Shown: piece by piece, positions 48,453-64,000 of the stretch | How the letters are laid out: the number at the start of each line of letters is the position of its first letter | Position numbering within the stretch: the stretch's first letter is position 1 | From: Lachnospiraceae bacterium | Lineage (GTDB): Bacteria > Bacillota > Clostridia > Lachnospirales > Lachnospiraceae | Reading direction: 5' to 3' | Assembly: GCA_024698715.1 (NCBI GenBank) | Contig: JAILRA010000077.1 | Location: 1 to 64,000 of the forward strand | Length of the DNA stretch: 64,000 nt | Position numbers and translations under genes: made by a program | The notes under the pieces: model-generated | Databases searched by the model: none | Seen by the model: only the letters and a program-made list of their open reading frames with translations | Told to the model about the DNA's origin: nothing

Positions 48453-49565
48453 ATGAAAAAAAGAAGATTTTCAACAAGAAATATTGTACTCGTATATACC
48501 GTAATGATATTCATTGTTGCCGTCGGATCCCTGGCGGTTTCATTGTATTTTTCGCGTATTCTGAAAGCAGGTCATGAAAAAAAGGATTCCTACGGGGATG
48601 TTTATTCCTCGTCGGCGGTCAATGACGGTTCGATAAATTTCGACAGATATTATGTGATGATCACGGCGGACAGGGAACTGGATTTCTGGCAGTCCGTTTA
48701 CAAAGGAGCATTTGAAGAGGGCATTAAAAAAGGGATCTGTGTTGAAATGATGGGAGAAAATCTCTCGGACGATTACAGCGACACGGATCTGATGGAGATC
48801 GCCGTTGCATCCAAAGCGGACGGTATCATCATATATGCCGATGAATCGGCTGAAATGAGAGAACTGATCGAGAAGGCCGTAAACGAAGGCATACCCGTGG
48901 TTACCGTATACGGTGACAGCGCCAATTCCACAAGATGCTGCTATGTCGGTGTCGGAAGTTACAATCTCGGACGTGAATACGGCAAGCAGGTAGTAAAGAT
49001 CGCAAGGGAATCCGAACTTTCCAACACGACCGCATCCACGCATATGAATGATGTTGTTAAGGTTGCGGTCCTTGTAAATTCCTATTCGGACAACTCCAAT
49101 CAGAATCTTGTATGGTCGGGCATTCAGAATGCCGTTTCGACCGAAAACAATACACAGACACAGATAGAACTTTCCATGGCGTATGTGGATAACAGAAGTA
49201 CTTTTACTGCAGAAGAATCCATAAGAGACCTTTTCAGATCCAAGGAAACCCCCGATGTTATCATCTGCCTTAACGAGACCGATACCAACTGTGTTTATCA
49301 GACACTTATCGATTACAACAAAGTAGGTAAATCAACCATACTCGGATATTATGATTCCGAAACAATTCTTAAAGGCATATCCAGAAACGTTATCTATTCC
49401 ACTATTTCCGTAGACACTTATCAGATGGGTGTTTACTGTGTGGATGCCATATATGAATACGAGGAAAAAGGCAATACCAGCCAGTATATGCTTGCCGATG
49501 TCACTCTGATCGACAAGAACAATGTCTCGGATTATCTGAAAGAGGAAACGGAGGTGGAAGAATGA
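48453..49565 (+). CDS. Membrane-anchored sugar-binding sensor (XylFII-like)
   Basis: A 370-residue protein with one N-terminal membrane helix (about 11-34) and a periplasmic-binding-protein fold outside (about 62-350): YVMITADRELDFWQSVYKGAFEEG, ADGIIIYADES, IPVVTVYGDS, DVIICLNETD and ILGYYDSE. It lacks a lipobox and transporter partners of its own. Next to a LytS/YesM kinase this matches the XylFII-LytS arrangement known from Clostridium beijerinckii, where the anchored binding protein senses D-xylose and activates the kinase. The last 4 bases overlap the kinase start (ATGA). The actual ligand is inferred from downstream xylosidase genes. Confidence 0.85.
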   Translation: MKKRRFSTRNIVLVYTVMIFIVAVGSLAVSLYFSRILKAGHEKKDSYGDVYSSSAVNDGSINFDRYYVMITADRELDFWQSVYKGAFEEGIKKGICVEMMGENLSDDYSDTDLMEIAVASKADGIIIYADESAEMRELIEKAVNEGIPVVTVYGDSANSTRCCYVGVGSYNLGREYGKQVVKIARESELSNTTASTHMNDVVKVAVLVNSYSDNSNQNLVWSGIQNAVSTENNTQTQIELSMAYVDNRSTFTAEESIRDLFRSKETPDVIICLNETDTNCVYQTLIDYNKVGKSTILGYYDSETILKGISRNVIYSTISVDTYQMGVYCVDAIYEYEEKGNTSQYMLADVTLIDKNNVSDYLKEETEVEE

Positions 49566-51073
49566 AAGAAAAACATTCCAGACCGATGATCTCACTTCAG
49601 CTTAAACTGAGCGGTATTTTCATCATGGCGAGCATCCTCATCTTTATAGTTAACGCGATGCTTGTTTTCGGGATCAACAGGATGACTTCCGAAATGGATA
49701 TGGTATACCGGGACAATCTGAAACTGAATGCACTTACTGTGGCGCTTAACGATGTTCAGAACAATATGTCGGATTATCTTAATACCAAGACAACCGATTC
49801 GCTTCAGGCATATTACAAAAGCGAGCAGGCATATTTCAAACTGATCAGTGAACTTAACGGTTCCGTAACTCCGGACACGAACAGTCTCATGGAAAGAAAT
49901 ATAAAAAACATGTCCGAGGAATACCTGACCACCACGGAGAATGCCATTGATGCCAAGCGAGGAAGAAATGTAGAAAAGTATTCCGCGGAGTATGACAGAG
50001 CGAGCAGGTTATACGAGTATATCAACACGTATATTTACAGTCTCAATAACGAGAGATTCAAGAGCAATTCCGAAAGCTTCAGTGAACTCATTAAAGCTTT
50101 CAGGGTATTTGAAGTCGTAAGCATTATCGTCATGCTTGGCGCGGTTGTGGGAACCAGTGCATTTGTGCTCGGATTTACCAAGACCATGATCGACCCTGTA
50201 AGAAAACTCGCAAGGGCAGCAGACGAGGTCGCAAAAGGAAATTTCGAGATAGAAACCCTTCCGATATCATCCAACGATGAAATAGGTGTTGTTACCGGAA
50301 CCTTCAACAAAATGGTAGTCAGCATCAGACAGTACATCGAACAGATAAAAGAGAATATGGAACATGAGCGAAAGATGCAGGAGAAGGAACTCAAGACGGA
50401 GGCAACTCTTAAAGAGGCACAGCTTAAGTATCTTCAGACGCAGATTAATCCGCATTTTCTTTTCAATACTCTTAATGCCGGCGCACAGCTTGCAATGATG
50501 GAGGATGCCGAAAAGACATACAATTATATTCAGAATACGGCGGCGTTTTTCAGATATAATGTAAGGGAAGGATATACCACTGTTCGTCTTTCGGATGAGA
50601 TCAATCTCATCGATCATTACATATATATTCTGAACGTTCGTTTTTCGGGAGATATAAAATACGAAAAGACGATTGATAAATCGGTACTGGATGTTCTGAT
50701 GCCCAGCATGATCCTGCAGCCCATCATAGAGAATTCCGTCAATCACGGAATAAAGGAAATGGAAGGAAAGGGCAAGATCACACTGGATGTATATGCCGAA
50801 GACGACGATGTCTGCATCAGCGTTAAAGACAACGGTATCGGTATGACAAAGGAAATGATCAAAAAAGTATTGAGCGGCGAACTGACCGAAGAAGAAAAAG
50901 CGGCTCCCGTAGGTGCTCACGGTATCGGAATGGACAATGTCATCAAGAGGATAAGACTCTTCACCGAAAGAGAGGACAGTGTGTCGATCTTCAGTGACGG
51001 AGAAGGCATGGGCACCGAAGTCCTTATCAGACTCAGCAGAAACAATAATTCTCAAATCGTATCGGAGGATTAA
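49562..51073 (+). CDS. LytS/YesM-type sensor histidine kinase
   Basis: A 503-residue kinase with two membrane helices (about 15-37 and 182-207), an external helical sensor region between them (about 40-180), a HAMP linker (KLARAADEVAKGNFEIE), a short coiled coil and a His_kinase/HATPase unit. The phosphorylated histidine is His298 in QTQINPHFLFNTLN, and the ATP site shows the N box in IIENSVNHGI and the G box in VKDNGIGM. It should sense the sugar-loaded binding protein at 48453 and phosphorylate the regulator at 51077, starting 3 bases after its stop. Confidence 0.93.
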   Translation: MKEKHSRPMISLQLKLSGIFIMASILIFIVNAMLVFGINRMTSEMDMVYRDNLKLNALTVALNDVQNNMSDYLNTKTTDSLQAYYKSEQAYFKLISELNGSVTPDTNSLMERNIKNMSEEYLTTTENAIDAKRGRNVEKYSAEYDRASRLYEYINTYIYSLNNERFKSNSESFSELIKAFRVFEVVSIIVMLGAVVGTSAFVLGFTKTMIDPVRKLARAADEVAKGNFEIETLPISSNDEIGVVTGTFNKMVVSIRQYIEQIKENMEHERKMQEKELKTEATLKEAQLKYLQTQINPHFLFNTLNAGAQLAMMEDAEKTYNYIQNTAAFFRYNVREGYTTVRLSDEINLIDHYIYILNVRFSGDIKYEKTIDKSVLDVLMPSMILQPIIENSVNHGIKEMEGKGKITLDVYAEDDDVCISVKDNGIGMTKEMIKKVLSGELTEEEKAAPVGAHGIGMDNVIKRIRLFTEREDSVSIFSDGEGMGTEVLIRLSRNNNSQIVSED

Positions 51074-51076
51074 AGC

Positions 51077-52669
51077 ATGTATAAAATAATGATAGCCGAT
51101 GATGAAGGAATAGTTATCGATTCTCTTAAATTCGTGCTTGAAAAGGAATTCGGCAAGGAATGCGTTATAGAATACGCCAAAACAGGACGCAGCGTGATCG
51201 AACTGGCCGAGAATTTCAGACCGGATATTTCCATCATGGATATCCAGATGCCGGGAATAAACGGTATCGATGCGATGAAAGAGATCCGTGAAAAAAATAA
51301 GGATGTTATTTTTATTGTAATGAGTGCTTACGATAAGTTTGACTATGCTACCGAAGCGATCAAACTCGGAGTTCTCGATTACATTACAAAACCGATGGAG
51401 AAAAATCGTATAATTTCCGTCGTTAAACGTGCCATGGCCATTATTGACAAAGAAAGAGCCAGAAGAAGCAATGATCTTATGGTCATGGAAAAAATGGAAA
51501 TGGTCATTCCCATGCTTGAGAGCGGCCTTATCTACAGTATCTTTCTTCAGGATAAGTTTTCGGAGGAAGCCGTCAATTACAAGAGCATCCTCGGAATAAA
51601 TGAAGAATACGGGTACATGATGGCCGTGGTTTGCGGAGAAAGGGATGAAGGTTCCAATCTTACCAATGCGGTCGGCAGCAGCGTCCGTCTTCAGAATCAT
51701 TATTCGGAATTAAGATCGTATCTGAAAGATTTCTGCGGCGGAATAATCGGAAATGTCATGTCAAATAAGATCGCGGTACTCGTCCCGTACGGCAAACCCG
51801 AGATGGACTATACCGAAAGGAACGAGCTTATCGAGAAGACCAGAGAGTTTACGAGAACGCTTCAGAGAAAACTCTCGGGAGATTTTAAGATAGGAATAGG
51901 CGGTGTCAAGGCATTCAGCGAAATGAACGATTCCTACGATGAGGCATTGCAGGCGCTTCTTAACGGCAACGGCAGAGTGGCACATGCGGACGATCTGGAA
52001 CTGAGATGCGAATACGAAGAGAACTATCCAGTCGAAACGGAAAAAAGGATGTTCGAACTTATTGAAAAAGGCGATTACGCCGGTGCCGGAAATGCTGCGG
52101 GTCAGTATTTTGACTGGATGAGCAACAATTTTTCAGACAGCATAATGGATATAAGGCTCAAGGTACTGGAGTTTGTTCTATATGCCGAACGCATCCTCTA
52201 CGTTAAAGGCGGAAATACCTACGAATTCAAGAGCCGTACCGACTATATCCCAAGTGTGATGGGAACGGAGGATCTTGGAGAACTGAAAACCTGGTTCCTG
52301 AACAAGATAGTGGAAACAGCCAAGAAAGTGGAGAATAACAGAAGCGATAAGTCGGAAAGCCTTATTGAAAAAGCGGAAGCGTTTATCCGCCGCAATTATA
52401 TGAAGGAACTTTCACTTGACGATATTTCACGTTACTGCAATATCAGTTCCTATTATTTCAGCAAGCTGTTCAAACAGGAGACCGGCGAGAATTATGTCGA
52501 ATACCTTACCAGGGTCCGTATCGAAAATGCCAAGAAGATGCTTTCTGATTCCGAGGCTTCGATCAAGGAGATAAGTTATTCCGTAGGATTTTCAGATCCG
52601 AATTATTTCAGCCGTGCGTTCAAAAAATACGAAGGCATTTCACCTACTGAATACAAGGAAGCGCTGTAA
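51077..52669 (+). CDS. YesN-type response regulator with AraC DNA-binding domain
   Basis: A 530-residue regulator: receiver domain (1-125, phospho-Asp55 in SIMDIQMPGING, with acidic pocket ADDE at 7-10), a long middle domain (about 150-410) typical of YesN proteins, and two AraC-type helix-turn-helix motifs (about 435-528) with SSYYFSKLFKQETGENYVEYL and IKEISYSVGFSDPNYFSRAF. It most likely activates the transporter and glycosidase genes downstream in response to extracellular xylose or a related sugar. Its binding sites cannot be fixed from a single genome; the 53850-53966 leader is the first place to look. Confidence 0.93.
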   Translation: MYKIMIADDEGIVIDSLKFVLEKEFGKECVIEYAKTGRSVIELAENFRPDISIMDIQMPGINGIDAMKEIREKNKDVIFIVMSAYDKFDYATEAIKLGVLDYITKPMEKNRIISVVKRAMAIIDKERARRSNDLMVMEKMEMVIPMLESGLIYSIFLQDKFSEEAVNYKSILGINEEYGYMMAVVCGERDEGSNLTNAVGSSVRLQNHYSELRSYLKDFCGGIIGNVMSNKIAVLVPYGKPEMDYTERNELIEKTREFTRTLQRKLSGDFKIGIGGVKAFSEMNDSYDEALQALLNGNGRVAHADDLELRCEYEENYPVETEKRMFELIEKGDYAGAGNAAGQYFDWMSNNFSDSIMDIRLKVLEFVLYAERILYVKGGNTYEFKSRTDYIPSVMGTEDLGELKTWFLNKIVETAKKVENNRSDKSESLIEKAEAFIRRNYMKELSLDDISRYCNISSYYFSKLFKQETGENYVEYLTRVRIENAKKMLSDSEASIKEISYSVGFSDPNYFSRAFKKYEGISPTEYKEAL

Positions 52670-52720
52670 AAGGATCCGTAAAAATTTGTTATCCGCTCAG
52701 AATTACATGGAGAGAATTTT

Positions 52721-53779
52721 ATGAAGATATTTCACAATTTAAAAAGACTGTCCGTATTTATACTTTCAACCTTTCTCGTGTTTTCTTTTCTTTCGGGATG
52801 TACCGTAAAAGAAAACGATCCCGGCGAGAGTACCGAAAACTATGATGATGTCATAAATATAGGAATGTCTTTTGACTCATTTGTAATAGAAAGATGGCAG
52901 CGTGACAGGGATGTGTTTGTTTCGACGGCCAAGGAGATGGGCGCCGAAGTAAATGTTCAGAATGCCAACGGGGATATCGAGGAACAGAAAAGGCAGATAC
53001 AGTATTTTATCGAGCAGAATGTCGACGTCATCGTCATTATATGCATAGATGCCGATACTCTTTCGGAAGAAGTCAAGAAAGCCAAGAACGTCGGTATCAA
53101 AGTTATTGCATATGACAGGATCATAAGGGATGCGGATATCGATCTATATATCTCTTTTGATAACAATATGGTAGGAACCCTGATGGGCGAGACGCTGATC
53201 TCATCGGGTATTGGCGAAGGTGACGATATAATCATGATCGGCGGTTCACCGGCCGATTATAATGTTCCCGCACTGGAAGAAGGCTTTATAAAAGTAATGG
53301 AAGACAATAAGATCAATATCGCCGATCAGGTGCACTGTGACGGTTGGAGAGCCGAGATCGCTTCGGATTACGTTTATTCCAATATGGACAAGATCTCACA
53401 GGCCGATGCGATAATGTGCGGAAACGACAATATAGCCAGTAAGGTTGTTTCGGTTCTTTCGGAACAGAGGCTTGCGGGAACGATACCCGTGACAGGGCAG
53501 GATGCAGATCTGGAAGCGTGTCAGAGAATAGTCGAAGGAACACAGCTTATGACCATATATAAACCCGTGGACATGCTTGCAAAGCAGGCGGCTGAATGTG
53601 CCATCAGACTTGCAAAGGGAGAGAATCTCGGAACCGACAAAACCATGAACAACGGAACATACGATGTTCCTTACATAAGTCTTACACCCATTCCCGTTAC
53701 CAAAGAAAACATCGACGAAACCATTATTAACAGCGGTTTCCACACCAGAGAGGATGTTTATCTGAACGTTCCCGAATAA
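52721..53779 (+). CDS. XylF-like sugar-binding lipoprotein
   Basis: A 352-residue lipoprotein with lipobox FLSGC (Cys27) and a periplasmic sugar-binding fold of the xylose-binding type: IERWQRDRDVFVSTAKEMG, VDVIVIICIDADTL, KVIAYDRIIRDADIDLYISFDN and PVTGQDADLEACQRI. The YDRL/YDRI and GQDAD blocks are characteristic of XylF/ChvE proteins. It is the last gene of the regulatory unit and ends at a strong terminator, separate from the transporter genes. It may deliver sugar to the MmsA-MmsB transporter or to the two-component sensor. Confidence 0.88.
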   Translation: MKIFHNLKRLSVFILSTFLVFSFLSGCTVKENDPGESTENYDDVINIGMSFDSFVIERWQRDRDVFVSTAKEMGAEVNVQNANGDIEEQKRQIQYFIEQNVDVIVIICIDADTLSEEVKKAKNVGIKVIAYDRIIRDADIDLYISFDNNMVGTLMGETLISSGIGEGDDIIMIGGSPADYNVPALEEGFIKVMEDNKINIADQVHCDGWRAEIASDYVYSNMDKISQADAIMCGNDNIASKVVSVLSEQRLAGTIPVTGQDADLEACQRIVEGTQLMTIYKPVDMLAKQAAECAIRLAKGENLGTDKTMNNGTYDVPYISLTPIPVTKENIDETIINSGFHTREDVYLNVPE

Positions 53780-53807
53780 AAATTCATATAGCATTTTTTT
53801 GTTAAAC

Positions 53808-53849
53808 AAAGCATATGCCGACAAAATTGTGATAGCATATGCTTTTTTT
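53808..53849 (+). terminator. Rho-independent terminator after the XylF-like gene
   Basis: AAAGCATATGC (53808-53818) pairs with GCATATGCTTT (53835-53845) and continues into a run of seven T. It separates the regulatory genes from the transporter operon. Confidence 0.88.
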
Positions 53850-53966
53850 GATTTTTAAAGTTATCAAAATTTTGAAGAACATTGCAATTTATTTTCAAAA
53901 AAGGTGTGTTAATGTGTAAATGTAGTCATGGAACTAACATTTCACATTTTTATGGGAGGTAAAGAA
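53850..53966 (+). promoter_or_regulatory. Leader of the chvE operon, with a tandem 8-base repeat
   Basis: This AT-rich segment must hold the start signals of the highly expressed chvE gene. TTGCAA at 53882-53887 is a possible -35, but no good -10 lies at 17 bases. TGTTAATG and TGTAAATG occur in tandem at about 53907-53922 and could be part of a regulator site. GGGAGG (53954-53959) is the ribosome site. Confidence 0.35.
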
Positions 53967-55037
53967 ATGAAAAAAAGATTACTCAGTGTTCTTCTTGCAT
54001 CCGGAATGGTAGCTACAACTCTCGTTGGTTGTACAGCAGGCGGATCGGGCAACAAGAAAGTCGGCGTTGCAATGCCTACAAAGGATTTACAGAGATGGAA
54101 CCAGGACGGTTCCAACATGGAATCACAGCTTAAGGCTGCAGGATATGATGTAGATCTTCAGTACGCATCAAACGATATCAACACACAGGTTACTCAGATT
54201 GAAAACATGATTTCATCAGGATGTGATGTTCTCGTTATCGCTTCGATCGACGGTGATTCACTCGGAACAGTTCTCGATCAGGCTAAGAATAAAAACATTC
54301 CTGTTATCGCTTATGACCGTTTGATCATGAACTCAGATGCAGTTACATACTATGCAACATTCGATAACTACATGGTAGGTACAAAGCAGGGTCAGTACAT
54401 CGAAGAGCAGTTAGGTCTTAAGGATGGCAAGGGACCTTACAACATGGAAATCTTCACAGGTGACCCCGGTGACAACAACGCAAGATTCTTCTACGGCGGT
54501 GCTATGGACGTTCTTAATCCTTACATCGACAACGGACAGATCGTAGTTCCTTCAGGACAGATCGAATTCGATACAGTTGCTACAGCTAACTGGGCATCAG
54601 ATGCAGCTCAGTCAAGAATGGAAGCTATCATTTCTTCCAACTATGCTGACGGAACGGTTCTTGACGCAGTTTTGTGTTCAAACGACTCTACAGCATTCGG
54701 TGTTACAAACGCACTTGTAGCTAACTATGAAGGCAATCATGACAACTATCCTATCATTACCGGTCAGGACTGTGATATCGCTAACGTAAAGAACATGCTT
54801 GCAGGCAAGCAGTCAATGTCTATCTTCAAAGATACACGTACACTTGCTTCCAAGACAGTTGAAATGGTTGACGCTATCCTCAAGGGAACACAGGCACCCG
54901 TTAATGATACAGAAACATACAACAACGGTAAGAAGGTTGTTCCTTCATACCTTTGCGAGCCGGTATTTGCTGATGTTAACAACTACGAAGAACTCTTGAT
55001 CAAGTCAGGTTACTATACAGCAGATCAGTTACAGTAA
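53967..55037 (+). CDS. chvE: ChvE-type multiple-monosaccharide-binding lipoprotein
   Basis: A 356-residue lipoprotein (signal peptide with lipobox LVGC, Cys22) of the ChvE family, the substrate receptor for ABC transporters that take up xylose, arabinose, galactose or glucose. The family blocks are clear: MPTKDLQRWNQDGSNM, NDINTQVTQIENMISSGCDVLV, VIAYDRLIMNSDAVTYYATFDN and ITGQDCDIANVKNM. GGGAGG before ATG 53967 excludes the ATG 13 codons upstream. Codon use is strongly biased toward a small set, unlike neighbours, as for abundant proteins. It is followed by two hairpins before the ATPase gene, typical for keeping binding protein levels above those of the membrane parts. Confidence 0.92.
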   Translation: MKKRLLSVLLASGMVATTLVGCTAGGSGNKKVGVAMPTKDLQRWNQDGSNMESQLKAAGYDVDLQYASNDINTQVTQIENMISSGCDVLVIASIDGDSLGTVLDQAKNKNIPVIAYDRLIMNSDAVTYYATFDNYMVGTKQGQYIEEQLGLKDGKGPYNMEIFTGDPGDNNARFFYGGAMDVLNPYIDNGQIVVPSGQIEFDTVATANWASDAAQSRMEAIISSNYADGTVLDAVLCSNDSTAFGVTNALVANYEGNHDNYPIITGQDCDIANVKNMLAGKQSMSIFKDTRTLASKTVEMVDAILKGTQAPVNDTETYNNGKKVVPSYLCEPVFADVNNYEELLIKSGYYTADQLQ

Positions 55038-55046
55038 TTCCCCTAT

Positions 55047-55120
55047 GAATGAACTTTGTTCATTCGTTTAAAACATAAGTTAAGTCCCCTTTTTTCATGA
55101 CTATTAAAGGGGACTTAACT
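55047..55120 (+). promoter_or_regulatory. Two hairpins between chvE and mmsA
   Basis: GAATGAAC/GTTCATTC with loop TTT (55047-55065) is followed by a long stem AGTTAAGTCCCCTTT/AAAGGGGACTTAACT (55078-55092 with 55106-55120). Neither has a good T run. They probably stabilise the 3' end of the chvE transcript or cause partial termination, lowering mmsA-mmsB expression relative to chvE. Confidence 0.65.
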
Positions 55121-55198
55121 ATGTAAAAATCTTTTGGAAAAAGTGGCAATAAAAGTATTAAAGAACATAAACGGTTAGATTAAACAGGAGGGATAAAA

Positions 55199-56743
55199 TT
55201 GGCCAAAATATTACTTGAAATGCAAAATATAACCAAGTTATTCCCGGGCGTTAAAGCACTTGACAATGTCAACCTTCAGGTGGAAGAAGGCGAGATCCAT
55301 GCTCTCGTTGGTGAAAACGGAGCCGGAAAGTCGACATTGATGAACGTTTTAAGCGGTATTTATCCTTACGGAACTTACGAAGGTAAAATAATATACAACG
55401 GTCAAGAATGTAAATTCACGAACATTAAGGACAGTGAAGCACTTGGAATAGTTATCATTCATCAGGAACTTGCACTTATTCCTTATATGACGATTGGTGA
55501 AAACATGTTCCTGGGTAATGAGCAGGGACGGTCTTGGAAGATTGATTGGGCGGAAACATACGGTAAAAGTGATGAATACTTAAGAACAGTCGGACTTAAA
55601 GAATCGTCGCGTACCTTAATTAAAGATATAGGCGTCGGCAAGCAGCAGCTTGTTGAAATTGCAAAAGCTCTTGCAAAGAATGCCAAATTACTTATTCTTG
55701 ATGAGCCGACTTCATCGCTTAACGAAAACGAATCAAAAGATCTTTTGGACCTTTTGCTTAAGTTCAAACAGGAAGGTCTTACTTCGATAATCATTTCTCA
55801 CAAATTAAACGAGATCTCATATGTTGCAGACAAGATCACGGTCATCCGTGACGGTTCCACGATCGAGACTCTCGACAAAGAAAAAGATGATATTTCTGAA
55901 GCAAGGATCATCAAGGGCATGGTTGGTCGTGAACTTTCCGACCGATTCCCGAAGAGAGAAAAGAATATCGGAGATATCTGTCTTGAAGTTATAGACTGGA
56001 ATGCATATCATCCCATCTACAGCGACAAGAAGATCATCGATCATGTAAGCATTAACGCCCGAAAGGGAGAGATCCTCGGCATCAGCGGACTTCAGGGTGC
56101 CGGACGTACGGAATTCGCAATGAGTGTATTCGGAAAGAGTTACGGTGAGAAGATCAGCGGTACTCTTATAAAGGACGGAGAGAAACTCAAACTCAATTCC
56201 GTACAGGAAGCCATTAAAAATAAAATTGCATACGTTACCGAGGACAGAAAAGGTAACGGTCTTATATTAAGCAATTCAATCAAATTCAACACGACGCTTG
56301 CAAATCTCAGCGGAGTCAGCAAAAACGGAATCATCAACAAAGATAACGAATATGCGGTTGCTGTTGAATACAAAGAAAAACTGAAAACCAAATGTCCTAC
56401 GGTAGAACAGAATGTAGGTAACTTAAGCGGTGGAAACCAGCAGAAAGTTCTTCTCGCCAAATGGATGTTTGCAGATCCCGACATTCTGATTCTTGATGAG
56501 CCCACACGTGGTATTGACGTAGGTGCAAAATACGAGATCTACTGCATCATGAATCAGCTTGCATCCGAAGGCAAGACGGTTATCATGATATCATCCGAAA
56601 TGCCCGAACTGTTGGGAATGTGTGACAGAATCTATGTTATGAACGAAGGCAGGATCGTAGGTGAAATGCCTATAGAAGAAGCTACTCAGGAATCCATTAT
56701 GGCATGCATTCTTCAGAGTGACAATGCGGAAATTACTGCATAA
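55199..56743 (+). CDS. mmsA: Multiple-monosaccharide ABC transporter ATPase (tandem ATPase domains)
   Basis: A 514-residue protein with two fused ABC ATPase domains, as in GguA/XylG. The first (about 5-245) has Walker [10 protein letters not shown], and Walker [12 protein letters not shown]. The second (about 260-505) has a degenerate Walker A (GLQGAGRTE), signature NLSGGNQQ and Walker [13 protein letters not shown], the usual pattern in this family. [10 protein letters not shown] fits the GguA subgroup. It should energise sugar import with the permease at 56771 and the ChvE protein. The start is TTG with AGGAGGG upstream. Confidence 0.93.
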
Positions 56744-56770
56744 AAGAATCTATAAATAAGGAGAGAAGAA

Positions 56771-57988
56771 ATGGAAAAAAAGAATGACAGCGCAAAAGTC
56801 ATTGAGTTTATCAAAAAATATGCAATGGTTATCGTTCTCGCATTGGTTTTGATATTCTTTTCAATTACGACAGGGGGTAAAATCCTTTTACCCAATAACA
56901 TAAGTAACATCATTTCACAGAACGCATACGTGTTCGTTCTGGCAACCGGTATGCTTCTTTGTATCCTCACCGGTGGTAACATCGATCTTTCGGTCGGATC
57001 GGTAGTATGTTTCGTAGGTGCGGTAGGTGCTACACTTATGACATCGATCGGAATTCCCTGGCCGGTATCGGTACTGATAATGTTCTCGGTAGGTTTGCTC
57101 ATCGGTGCAACACAGGCTTTCTGGATCGCATACGTAAGAATCCCGCCGTTCATCGTAACACTTGCAGGTATGCTTATCTTCCGTGGTTTGAGTAACGTTG
57201 TGTTAAACGGTCTTACCGTAACCATCACGGATAAAGTCGGATTCATCAAATTCTTTGGTGGCGGCGCAGACTGCTACGTTCCCGATTTCCTCGGAAAACT
57301 TCTGGGAGAAGAACCTTCGGTAAATATCACATGTCTCGTAGTCGGTTTTATAGCTGTTGTCGCTTTCATCGCTTTTGAGATAGCAGGAAGACTTAAGAGA
57401 GTTAAAAAAGGTTATGAAGTAGACAAGATGATTCCCTGGATCATCAAGCTTGTACTTATCTCGAGCGTAGTTGTTGCATTGACAGTTCTGCTTGCATTGT
57501 TCAAAGGTATTCCTTCGGTATTGATCATCGTTATGATAGTAATCGGTATTTACACATACATTACTTCCAATACCACAACCGGTCGTTACTTCTACGCAGT
57601 CGGCGGTAACGAAAAGGCAACAAGACTTTCAGGTATCAATACAAACAAAACATTCTTTCTTGCATACACGAATATGGGCTTCCTTGCAGCACTCGCAGGT
57701 ATGATCACGATCGCACGTATGACATCTGCACAGCCCACATACGGACAGAACTACGAAATGGATGCCATCGCATCATGTTTCATCGGCGGTGCTTCCGCAT
57801 ACGGTGGAATCGGTACCGTTCCCGGAGCTATCATCGGTGCAACACTTATGGGTGTTATCAACCTCGGTATGCTTATCATGGGCGTTGACCAGAACATGCA
57901 GAAGGTTGTTAAAGGTCTCGTTCTTCTTGCGGCCGTTATCTTCGACGTAGTATCCAAGAGAGGCTTCAAGCTTATCGCAAAGAACTAA
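56771..57988 (+). CDS. mmsB: Multiple-monosaccharide ABC transporter permease
   Basis: A 405-residue integral membrane permease with about eleven helices. LCILTGGNIDLSVGSVV and FWIAYVRIPPFIVTLAGMLI are the conserved segments of XylH/GguB/RbsC permeases, and GRYFYAVGGNEKATRLSGIN is the loop that contacts the ATPase. It forms the membrane pore of the ChvE-MmsA-MmsB transporter. GGAGAG lies before the ATG, 27 bases after mmsA. The unit ends at the terminator 58055-58092, so the glycosidase genes are transcribed separately. Confidence 0.93.
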   Translation: MEKKNDSAKVIEFIKKYAMVIVLALVLIFFSITTGGKILLPNNISNIISQNAYVFVLATGMLLCILTGGNIDLSVGSVVCFVGAVGATLMTSIGIPWPVSVLIMFSVGLLIGATQAFWIAYVRIPPFIVTLAGMLIFRGLSNVVLNGLTVTITDKVGFIKFFGGGADCYVPDFLGKLLGEEPSVNITCLVVGFIAVVAFIAFEIAGRLKRVKKGYEVDKMIPWIIKLVLISSVVVALTVLLALFKGIPSVLIIVMIVIGIYTYITSNTTTGRYFYAVGGNEKATRLSGINTNKTFFLAYTNMGFLAALAGMITIARMTSAQPTYGQNYEMDAIASCFIGGASAYGGIGTVPGAIIGATLMGVINLGMLIMGVDQNMQKVVKGLVLLAAVIFDVVSKRGFKLIAKN

Positions 57989-61115: not shown

Positions 61116-62090
61116 ATGGCAAAACAAAACGAACCTTTGGTAACTCATATCTACACGGCAGATCCGTCGGCACATGTTTTTAACGACAAAATCTATGTTT
61201 ATCCTTCGCACGATCTTGAACATGACGGTGAAGACAATGATGACGGTGACGAGTATCAGATGGAAGACTATCATGTTCTTTCACTGGATAATCTTGATGC
61301 TCCCTGTGTTGATAACGGTGAAGCACTCAATATGCGCGATGTTCCCTGGGTAAGCAAACAGATGTGGGCTCCCGACTGTGTTGAGAAAAACGGAAAATAT
61401 TATCTTTATTTCCCTGCACGCGACAAGGACTTAAGATTCCACCTGGGTGTTGCCATATCCGACAGCCCTGTAGGACCTTTTAAACCCGAAGACGATTATA
61501 TCAAGGGAAGTTTCAGTATCGATCCCGCCGTTCTTATTGATGATGACGGCGCGGCATATATTTATTTCGGCGGTCTCTGGGGTGGACAGCTTGAAAAATG
61601 GCAGACCGGTGAATATGTGGATGATCCCGCACCTATTCCCGCAGATGCGGCTGCACTCGGACCTCAGGTTGCAAAACTCACCGATGACATGCTTCAGTTC
61701 GAGAACGGTCCCAGACAGATAACAATTCTGGATGAAAACGGCGAACCCATTAAGGCCGGTGACGAGGACAGAAGATACTTCGAAGGTCCCTGGATGCACA
61801 AATACAACGGAAAGTACTATCTTTCATATTCCACAGGTACCACGCATTATCTTGTATATGCTGTCGGCGATTCACCGATGGGCCCTTTTACATACAAAGG
61901 AAGGATCCTCGAGCCCGTTATCGGATGGACAACACATCATTCGATCGTTGAATACAAAGGCAAATGGTATCTTTTCTATCATGATTCATCGCTCTCAGGC
62001 GGTGTAAATCACAGAAGATGCGTTAAATACAGAGAACTTAAATATGACGAGAATGGAAATATCATTCCGATGAAACCTTACGAAGACTAA
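61116..62090 (+). CDS. Glycoside hydrolase family 43 (beta-xylosidase/alpha-arabinofuranosidase)
   Basis: A 324-residue cytoplasmic five-bladed beta-propeller enzyme without signal peptide. The three acidic active-site residues appear in the order usual for GH43: Asp16 in YTADPSAHVF (base), Asp136 in FSIDPAVLIDDDG (pKa modulator) and Glu223 in FEGPWMHKYNG (acid). Substrate may be xylo-oligosaccharides or arabinose side chains; sequence alone does not tell. GGAG precedes the ATG. The chemoreceptor-like gene follows 20 bases downstream, so the two are likely co-expressed, an uncommon pairing of an enzyme and a sensor. Confidence 0.9.
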   Translation: MAKQNEPLVTHIYTADPSAHVFNDKIYVYPSHDLEHDGEDNDDGDEYQMEDYHVLSLDNLDAPCVDNGEALNMRDVPWVSKQMWAPDCVEKNGKYYLYFPARDKDLRFHLGVAISDSPVGPFKPEDDYIKGSFSIDPAVLIDDDGAAYIYFGGLWGGQLEKWQTGEYVDDPAPIPADAAALGPQVAKLTDDMLQFENGPRQITILDENGEPIKAGDEDRRYFEGPWMHKYNGKYYLSYSTGTTHYLVYAVGDSPMGPFTYKGRILEPVIGWTTHHSIVEYKGKWYLFYHDSSLSGGVNHRRCVKYRELKYDENGNIIPMKPYED

Positions 62091-62110: not shown

Positions 62111-64000
62111 ATGGTTATAGCGCTGATAATAATCTCGGTACTGGAAGCACTTGCGATAGTTGCGTTGATTCTTGTTATTCTCAAGAAGAATGCTTCCCAG
62201 ACAAAAATTACCAGGCAGGCCGGGCTTATCATTAAGGGAAAACTCAATGTTGAGGATATAATTGTCGAGAATTCCGATAATGCCAACGCACTTATGGCCA
62301 GTGCATTTAATTCCATCAAGAACAATCTTCTTACTTTTGTGGAATCCACCAAGGTTAACGTTGTTACGCTTTCGGATGCGATAGAAGTATTGTATGACAG
62401 TGTGGAAGCAAATGCGAAAGGCAATGAGCAGATTGCCGACGGAGCTACAAACGTAGCGATCAAAACGGCAGAACAGCTCGAACTTGTTAAGGACAATCTG
62501 ACACTGATAGAGTCCAACAACAAACAGATACAGGATATCGACCTGGCCATGAAGAGTATAAAAGATATCCTTGATGATACTGTTAAGAGCAGTAAGTCCG
62601 GTATCGACAATATTGAAGATTTTGAAAACGATATGCTTGCGATGGCAGCAGATCTGAACAGGATCAACGATATTCTCTCGAAATTCAACAGTGAGATCCT
62701 GCGTATCGGCGAAGTCGGAAAATTCATCGTTGAGATTTCCGATCAGTTAAGACTTCTTGCTTTCAACTCATCGATCGAAGCGGCGAGAGCCGGTCAGGCC
62801 GGAAAAGGCTTTACCGTAGTTGCCGATGAAATGAATGTTATGTCTGCCAAGACCAGAGACGGTATGCAGACCATTAACGAAATCCTCAAAGAGATCATAA
62901 ACAGTTCCAAGATGGTAAATGACAGTATTACCAACTGTGAGAACACATATAACAGAAGCAAGGAAGCATTCAATACCGTTAACAGTTCGTTCAGAGTCAT
63001 TAACGAGAGTTCACTCGGAATACATGACAAGATCAACGATATTACCGGTCTTTTCGATGTCATGACCGATAACACCGACAAATCACGAGATCTGGCTGAG
63101 ACACTTTACGAGACGGCACAATCCATCAGTGAGAATACTCACGAGATTGCAGCGGTTTCCCAGGAAGTTGCTGCCGAATCTTCCAAGATCGGTGTCAATA
63201 CCGAAGCGCTCAACGGAATGCTGAGCGGTATTCAGAACCTGCTTAAGCAGTTTAATACAGCTATAGTTCCCACCGAAAAGAAGAGTGCAAAGCAGGTTAA
63301 GATACTTGAAATGAGTATGCTTGACAATGATTTCTGGTTCGGTGTAAGAAAAGGAGCATTATATGCTCAAAAGGAACTTTCTGATAAAAATGCTCTTATC
63401 GAGTACGCGCCTTTTGTTCCGAACACCATTCCGCTCAATGATTTTCTGAGTGAGACGATACAGTCCTGTATAGACAGACAGTTTGACGGAATCATTTTCC
63501 CGGGATTCCTGGGAAGTGTCGGACCTGCGGAGAAACTGTTTAATGCAGCTTCATCCAAGGGTGTGAAACTGATGGCTTACAACTGCGACTGCGGCAAAGA
63601 AGTTCCGAGACTGTCATGTCTGAGACCGGATTCACATGAGCCCGGCATTCTGGCTGCAAAAGCTGCTGAGAAAAAACTCGGCGGACAGGGAAGCGTGCTG
63701 ATGCTTACAGGTGATCGTACCGTAGAAGTTAACGTTGAAAGAAGCGAAGGCTTCAAGATGCAGTTAAAGGGTTCCAAGGTAGGGATCGCTGCCGAATTGA
63801 CAATTCCGGATAATGCCGATGAAGTATACAGAATAGCCAAAGCGGGATTGCAGTCACATCCCGAAGCGGGAGTCGTATTTATTACCAACGGTTTCCCTCT
63901 GTCCGCAGCCAAAGCCATTAGAGATTCGGGAAGAGTCGGAAAGACAAGCCTTGTATGCTTCGATCACAATCAGGAAATATTCTCCGAGATCAAAGCGGGA
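62111..64000 (+). CDS. Methyl-accepting chemotaxis-type protein fused to a sugar-binding-protein domain (partial)
   Basis: The gene runs off the window; 630 codons are visible. Residues 2-22 form one membrane helix (MVIALIIISVLEALAIVALI) with basic residues after it, so the rest should be cytoplasmic. Residues about 60-390 are a long helical chemoreceptor signalling region with the hairpin tip LRLLAFNSSIEAARAGQAG followed by KGFTVVADEMNVM (about 212-243). From about residue 394 a periplasmic-binding-protein (type 4) fold begins: VKILEMSMLDNDFWFGVRKG, FDGIIFPGFLG, GSVLMLTGDRTVEVN and AGVVFITNGFP. The C-terminus is missing. GAGGGGG lies upstream of the ATG. It probably couples cytoplasmic sugar to CheA/CheW signalling. 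Confidence 0.85.
   Translation, partial: MVIALIIISVLEALAIVALILVILKKNASQTKITRQAGLIIKGKLNVEDIIVENSDNANALMASAFNSIKNNLLTFVESTKVNVVTLSDAIEVLYDSVEANAKGNEQIADGATNVAIKTAEQLELVKDNLTLIESNNKQIQDIDLAMKSIKDILDDTVKSSKSGIDNIEDFENDMLAMAADLNRINDILSKFNSEILRIGEVGKFIVEISDQLRLLAFNSSIEAARAGQAGKGFTVVADEMNVMSAKTRDGMQTINEILKEIINSSKMVNDSITNCENTYNRSKEAFNTVNSSFRVINESSLGIHDKINDITGLFDVMTDNTDKSRDLAETLYETAQSISENTHEIAAVSQEVAAESSKIGVNTEALNGMLSGIQNLLKQFNTAIVPTEKKSAKQVKILEMSMLDNDFWFGVRKGALYAQKELSDKNALIEYAPFVPNTIPLNDFLSETIQSCIDRQFDGIIFPGFLGSVGPAEKLFNAASSKGVKLMAYNCDCGKEVPRLSCLRPDSHEPGILAAKAAEKKLGGQGSVLMLTGDRTVEVNVERSEGFKMQLKGSKVGIAAELTIPDNADEVYRIAKAGLQSHPEAGVVFITNGFPLSAAKAIRDSGRVGKTSLVCFDHNQEIFSEIKAG

Follow-up and report, generated by a model that had tools for sequence, protein, structure and literature searches.

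A gene near the end of the window (the whole stretch of Lachnospiraceae DNA that we analysed, 64,000 nucleotides) encodes a fusion of a chemoreceptor (MCP) signalling domain with a solute-binding protein (SBP) domain, and the fusion is confirmed as real. The open reading frame list places its start at position 62111 on the forward strand and leaves it still open at the window end (64000). The source genome (2.93 Mb in 108 contigs, 89% complete) supplies the rest on its 74,899-bp contig C93: there the full gene runs from 62111 to 64162 (+), and its product (P0001) has 683 amino acids. We propose that this protein is a chemoreceptor with a relocated SBP of the CUT2 (monosaccharide) type, now cytoplasmic and covalently fused to the MCP bundle at its C-terminal end, where a cytosolic ligand would tune CheA and the motor, a form of post-uptake sensing; we put the probability of this reading at roughly 0.7. 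Indirect grounds give good support to the sensing of a cytoplasmic ligand in the control of motility. The ligand would most likely be a sugar or sugar derivative, a pentose being possible.

Pfam and hydropathy on the full 683 residues bear out the domain order given in the initial annotation, one N-terminal membrane helix followed by the MCP signalling domain and then the SBP fold. The single helix lies at about residues 3–24 (62117..62182, +) as read from the sequence and from hydropathy and charge counts over 77 proteins, and appears as helix 4–42 in the model of an ortholog; some two residues precede it in the window protein, and Lys/Arg residues follow it. Pfam and the ortholog model then give a long antiparallel chemoreceptor coiled coil (about residues 57–379; 62279..63247, +), inside which lies the Pfam MCPsignal match of the window protein (residues 195–340; 62693–63130, +; E 8.9e-21, 74.9 bits against a cut-off of 34.6). 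The C-terminal SBP domain (about residues 396–683; 63296..64000, +, where it is cut by the window end) is recognised from the fold matches of the ortholog model and from a Peripla_BP_4 match in the window protein (residues 405–652; E 5.1e-30, 105.3 bits against a cut-off of 35.1). The data support the SBP fold as the only folded ligand-type domain seen in the window protein. It does not take the free-standing, exported or lipobox form expected of CUT2-type SBPs: it is fused behind an MCP domain, and members without a transmembrane (TM) segment exist. The comparison with the fold of LacI-type repressors in the initial annotation fits loosely, as Peripla_BP_4 is the best match in all 69 relatives scanned while Peripla_BP_1, a family to which LacI sugar-binding domains belong, also matches in 18 of them. 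In the window protein neither the DNA-binding helix-turn-helix of LacI-family repressors nor Peripla_BP_3 gave a Pfam match at E 0.01. Downstream, between the fusion gene and a convergent AraC-type gene, we saw by eye an inverted repeat that has a T run; our scan lists the stem for the opposite strand only.

We looked for the same architecture in other genomes. Within the genus, 10 of 31 genomes match the full protein at E 1e-60, eight over its full length (the source genome included) and two in pieces. At E 1e-50, with the two or three best first-look candidates of each genome scored, at least 8 of 299 genomes match in the family sample and at least 9 of 391 in the class sample, the source genome counted in both; in the phylum sample at least 1 of 398 matches, which among the candidates scored is the source genome itself. 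A pattern-based scan of named genomes, with search patterns sitting at D..FW and QGHDP, kept the best 80 of 112 relatives. After L059 and L122 (5' end missing), L066 (a chimera) and L054 (the same protein as L053) had been dropped, 76 distinct relatives were left, and together with the window protein they make up the 77 rows counted here. The window row is a 630-residue fragment in the residue-conservation and pocket counts, and the 683-residue protein in the hydropathy analysis and the tree. The Pfam scan set of 69 members excludes eight near-duplicate rows; both domains, MCPsignal and SBP, were found in 69 of 69, MCPsignal at E 0.001. The relatives are mostly Lachnospiraceae, with other clostridia including Pseudobacteroides cellulosolvens, Acetivibrio alkalicellulosi and Thermoclostridium caenicola; carriers that are not marked as MAGs include AC2028, XPB1003, NK4A179, NC2008 and the Pseudobacteroides and Thermoclostridium species just named. 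An assembly chimera was ruled out as the origin of the fusion by the presence of the whole architecture in named strains and in one-contig genomes, and because this architecture is conserved across genomes we exclude chance as well. Locus L066 (8349–8840) was rejected as a true member; here an AraC-like N-terminus is in frame with an SBP end at a contig end, probably an assembly chimera. Four class-level genomes hold two or three copies of the fusion, and in two of these, G544 and G412, with three copies each, two copies lie close together on one contig.

The hairpin tip of the coiled coil, E223..K232 (62777..62806, +), is presumably the CheA/CheW-facing end of MCPs. Residues N219, E223, G228, G233 and F234 are present in 77/77 rows and R226 in 68/77, while model confidence is low at the turn itself. 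Where the Q-T-N motif usually has Thr, all 77 rows have Leu, a change that may alter partner contacts. We note that across this part of the tip (62738–62767, residues 210–219) the Leu stands against the Thr of Q-T-x-L-L in the eight other MCP translations printed for the source genome. With the regular expression used at first, 17 of 80 loci showed no tip. Of 15 inspected, two had a variant tip; of the 13 other tip-negative loci eight were read by eye, giving seven full-length proteins with variants (for example KLLGINASVEASKAG and KMLAFNASIESARAG) and one, L122, without its 5' part. Missing MCP tips were ruled out by these variants together with the MCPsignal match in every member scanned. 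A stretch EIAAVSxE..AES, picked out by eye in the alignment, looks like a candidate adaptation site. The source genome (G000) has ten MCPsignal matches, four flagellin matches and three CheW-domain matches, one of the latter in a 704-residue frame; by eye the three are CheW, CheA (704 aa) and a CheV-like protein. Of 25 carriers found, 23 were searched for such genes, with G008 and G029 (fusion in pieces) set aside and the search covering carriers only: CheW domains were found in 23/23 and flagellin in 20/23, the other three giving no flagellin match.

The initial annotation had put the SBP fold on the cytoplasmic side, a prediction which hydropathy, flank charges and the TM-less relatives all support. 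Membrane segments were called by Kyte-Doolittle hydropathy (19-residue window, threshold 1.6). Six of the 77 proteins have no segment, 55 have one, 15 have two and one is scored with three; all lie before residue 100, and none after it reaches the threshold in any of the 77. Because there is no later membrane helix, the SBP domain is predicted to be on the same side as the CheA-coupling tip, that is, the cytoplasmic side. In the two-helix relatives both helices precede the MCP domain, and an export signal or second helix that would place the SBP outside, the contrary case named in the initial annotation, was not found in the 77 proteins. In one-helix rows the N-flank has a net charge of zero or below in 46/55 and the C-flank is positive in 54/55, which therefore argues for the C-terminal part being inside; in two-helix rows the N-flank is positive in 15/15 and the C-flank neutral or negative in 6/15. 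The six TM-less rows fall inside the 14-row clade that includes the window protein, and a quick tree gives one loss (support 100). Each of the six has an in-frame stop a few codons upstream, and a search for the lost membrane segment in the 900 bp upstream of these genes returned chance-level matches only (E 4.5 and above), whereas in three controls the window query gave matches of 8.5e-20 or better. Unless their start sites have been misjudged, the SBP of these members could only be cytosolic, which we regard as the strongest point. Moreover, as one lineage does without the membrane helix, the helix is likely to be an anchor. For the SBP domain, dN/dS is 0.058, 0.040, 0.064 and 0.063 in four TM-less pairs, dS being near-saturated in some; over all 11 pairs it spans 0.039–0.196, with one pair as high as 0.196. 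By this estimate, the SBP domain of the TM-less clade is under strong constraint (0.040–0.064). The opposite arrangement, with the SBP domain outside the cell sensing external sugar, would agree with the normally extracytosolic location of SBPs given in PMC9602780, but it would place the MCP tip outside too, and the charge distribution, the two-helix members and the TM-less members all oppose it; we give it next to no weight. Cysteine count was considered as an indicator of cytoplasmic location and dropped, since by eye several cysteines occur in the window's exported SBPs too.

The structure modelled is that of an ortholog, L049, which shares 73% identity with the window fragment; with the 77-row alignment it reached a mean pLDDT of 81 and a pTM of 0.56. 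Helices 58–227 and 233–380 run on either side of a low-confidence tip (pLDDT below 50 at 230–232) and are followed by a linker and the SBP domain, whose blocks score 82–95 except for the last two (77 and 52). The top Foldseek matches were CbpD of C. thermocellum, GanP of G. stearothermophilus, the glucose-binding protein of T. maritima (tmGBP) and the ribose-binding protein of T. tengcongensis, with probability 1.00 for the first three; the structure entries matched by the SBP domain were 7x0p, 6guq, 2h3h, 2ioy and 5xss. In this model the SBP would sit at the membrane-proximal end of the bundle, its orientation relative to the bundle being unreliable at such a pTM. In the mechanism that we suggest, the two lobes of the SBP close on a small ligand in the cytosol. 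This ligand is most likely a free sugar or a derivative of one, left by ABC import or set free by intracellular glycosidases. Closure would act on the C-terminal helix at its end, beside the HAMP-like and adaptation region, and the altered helix end would change packing down the bundle; CheA activity at the tip would shift accordingly, and with it the flagellar motor. The role of the membrane helix would be that of an anchor only, and the cell would steer by nutrient that it has already imported.

The ligand pocket was mapped by a profile alignment that puts H22 of XylFII and K9 of tmGBP at one position; since PMC9601137 gives these two as corresponding residues, this serves as a check on the mapping. 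This position is M403 in the window protein and over the 77 rows is Met in 44, Ile in 15, Pro in 15 and Lys in 3. The position of XylFII D103, known here only as the one mutated in XylFII entry 5xsd, is N491 in the window protein and Asn in 77/77. The initial annotation had raised the loss of all ligand-contact residues as a contrary finding, and this is not the case: F408, W409 and D618 are kept in 77/77 rows, R544 in 73/77, D493 in 72/77, N541 in 60/77 and Q638 in 73/76, and the N593 position is Asn in 31/77. Ten pocket positions, chosen by us, are more conserved than the rest of the SBP domain (p 8e-5 in the 77 rows and 4e-5 in the 15 similarity-found rows; 8e-4 and 3e-4, respectively, without the columns near the search pattern), conservation at D..FW and QGHDP being partly circular in the 77 rows as the search patterns sit there. 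According to PMC9601137, the H22/K9 contact is likewise missing from C. thermocellum CbpA, a weak binder of glucose. Judged from its residues, the SBP site looks functional but does not resemble a xylose site.

Upstream of the fusion gene, and as the initial annotation had it, lies a co-directional GH43 glycoside hydrolase gene recognised by Pfam (61116..62090, +), which ends 20 bp before the fusion gene and is probably co-transcribed with it. Upstream genes were scanned at 69 loci (eight more have no upstream gene on their contig) and downstream genes at 75, with 25 of 82 families listed for each. Among the matches listed, the upstream families are led by chorismate synthase (7), GH43 (6), GH10 (5) and EF-Ts (5), and the downstream families by HTH_AraC (9) and TGT (8). 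The six GH43 cases all fall in the window clade (14 rows), in which GH43 is upstream in the window and in five of six other TM-bearing members with an upstream gene on the contig, and is absent as an upstream neighbour in 6/6 TM-less members. Judging from gene length and the tree, the near-identical L072–L075 and L078 are presumably the five GH10 cases and represent a single event; in L074, which belongs to another subclade, the GH10 gene carries an esterase-like domain. A universal sugar operon was ruled out by the mixed immediate neighbours, the context not being conserved beyond subclades. ABC importer genes (by eye) and ChvE- and XylF-like SBPs are encoded upstream of the fusion gene, and the GH43, GH39 and GH3 products have no evident signal peptide by eye; with such importers and signal-less enzymes nearby, free sugar in the cytosol is therefore plausible. 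In this upstream region (48657–57988) an SBP gene precedes that of a sensor kinase (L016), and an AraC-type response regulator is encoded at 51077. The XylF-like protein, a lipoprotein, lies at 52721 and the ChvE-like SBP, which scores above the NCBIfam cut-off, at 53928, together with the ABC importer genes. With the kinase, regulator and ABC genes read by eye, the arrangement has the look of a sensing unit of SBP, kinase and regulator next to an importer of monosaccharides. Elsewhere in the source genome five long proteins (L017 on C22, L018–L020 on C62 and L022 on C74) start with an SBP/LacI-like domain and by eye run on into GGDEF-like and, in some, EAL-like regions. The genome may thus also use cytoplasmic SBP-fold sensors for c-di-GMP signalling.

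What the SBP domain binds can be read in several ways. The initial annotation had named a pentose, which is not established: the D103 position is Asn throughout and the H22/K9 position is Met, Ile or Pro in 74/77 rows. That the domain senses xylose or arabinose freed by GH43 and other intracellular enzymes would fit the closeness of GH43 and its retention in the window clade, the GH39 and GH3 genes and ChvE/XylF-like SBPs of the same region, the GH10 gene with its esterase-like domain in another subclade, and the presence of XylFII and the T. maritima glucose/xylose protein among the matches. Against this, the equivalents of XylFII H22 and D103 are replaced, phmmer at E 0.01 did not return the locus's own XylF- and ChvE-like SBPs among the relatives of the SBP domain, and GH43 is upstream neither in the six TM-less relatives nor, among the matches listed, in the remaining rows examined. 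We regard a pentose as a tentative option. Some cytoplasmic LacI-type proteins bind a phosphorylated sugar or a central metabolite, and a receptor built on such a domain would report metabolic state and not diet sugar. The mixed neighbours, of which chorismate synthase upstream (7/69) and TGT downstream (8/75) are the commonest among the matches listed, are consistent with this, as is the altered pocket, with R500 and R544 in 73/77 rows and an Asn at the usual Asp. The SBP domain is however closest to SBPs for free monosaccharides and the phosphate site is only putative, and a metabolite ligand of this kind seems to us possible if rather doubtful.

It is also conceivable that the fold has ceased to bind small molecules and now works in protein docking or dimerisation. 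The conserved QGHDP motif, which is absent from the aligned GanP, XylFII and T. maritima protein, points in this direction: it occurs in 15/15 genus- and family-level rows found by similarity and in 10 of 12 complete class-level members, the other two having QAHDA (14 loci, minus L135, for which the filter gave no protein, and L138, which is incomplete). The core pocket positions are nevertheless among the most conserved, though two contact positions are changed, and we consider a docking role improbable.

In chemoreception by SBP docking, a ribose- or maltose-binding protein recognises the ligand for a transmembrane MCP. This principle is set out in PMC9602780, which also has SBP Pfam families matching sensor domains of cytosolic signalling proteins. 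As there, the SBP fold would be the ligand-recognising element for an MCP in the fusion, but a docking SBP is separate, exported and binds outside, whereas that of the fusion is covalently attached, lies in the cytoplasm and occupies the opposite end of the receptor. SBP-based sugar signalling is also found in clostridia in XylFII-LytS (xylose) and CuaD-CuaS (cellobiose), and XylFII is among the best profile matches. LytS of the former pair is a sensor kinase with an extracellular domain. CuaD-CuaS likewise consists of an SBP and a sensor kinase with an extracellular domain (PMC10384115). The fusion differs from XylFII at H22, to which PMC9601137 assigns a ligand role, and at D103, with M403 and N491 in their place in the window protein.

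Chemoreceptors with a C-terminal ligand domain are known; no description of an SBP-type C-terminal chemoreceptor was found in the open-licence literature searched. At least 17 types of ligand domain (LBD) occur C-terminally in chemoreceptors in Pfam, a subfamily called poorly characterised in PMC7390727, and Peripla_BP_4 may be among these 17. As in those receptors, for example the CZB type, whose sensor domain follows the MCP signalling domain (PMC7390727), the sensor of the fusion comes last and is cytosolic by prediction, but it is a complete SBP with both lobes. Cytoplasmic sensing of a nutrient for chemotaxis has a counterpart in Car, the cytoplasmic arginine receptor of Halobacterium salinarum (PMC3579733), for which the available part of that paper does not mention an SBP-type C-terminal domain.

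These observations touch an old question, whether bacteria steer by nutrients outside the cell or by those already taken up. To our knowledge, few of the receptors for metabolism-linked taxis have a ligand pocket that is both defined and intracellular. On balance, and with confidence somewhat above even, we view the fusions as a distinct chemoreceptor family in Clostridia in which an exported sugar-binding protein has been made cytoplasmic and is the only ligand sensor, the motor following imported or intracellularly released sugar by direct binding, and one lineage being fully soluble. The family is a candidate with a well-understood two-lobed fold, closely related membrane-bound and soluble forms, and some hosts that are named strains. 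Such pairs and hosts make post-uptake sensing directly testable. If the proposal is true, SBPs are able to drive MCPs from the base of the bundle, on the cytoplasmic side.
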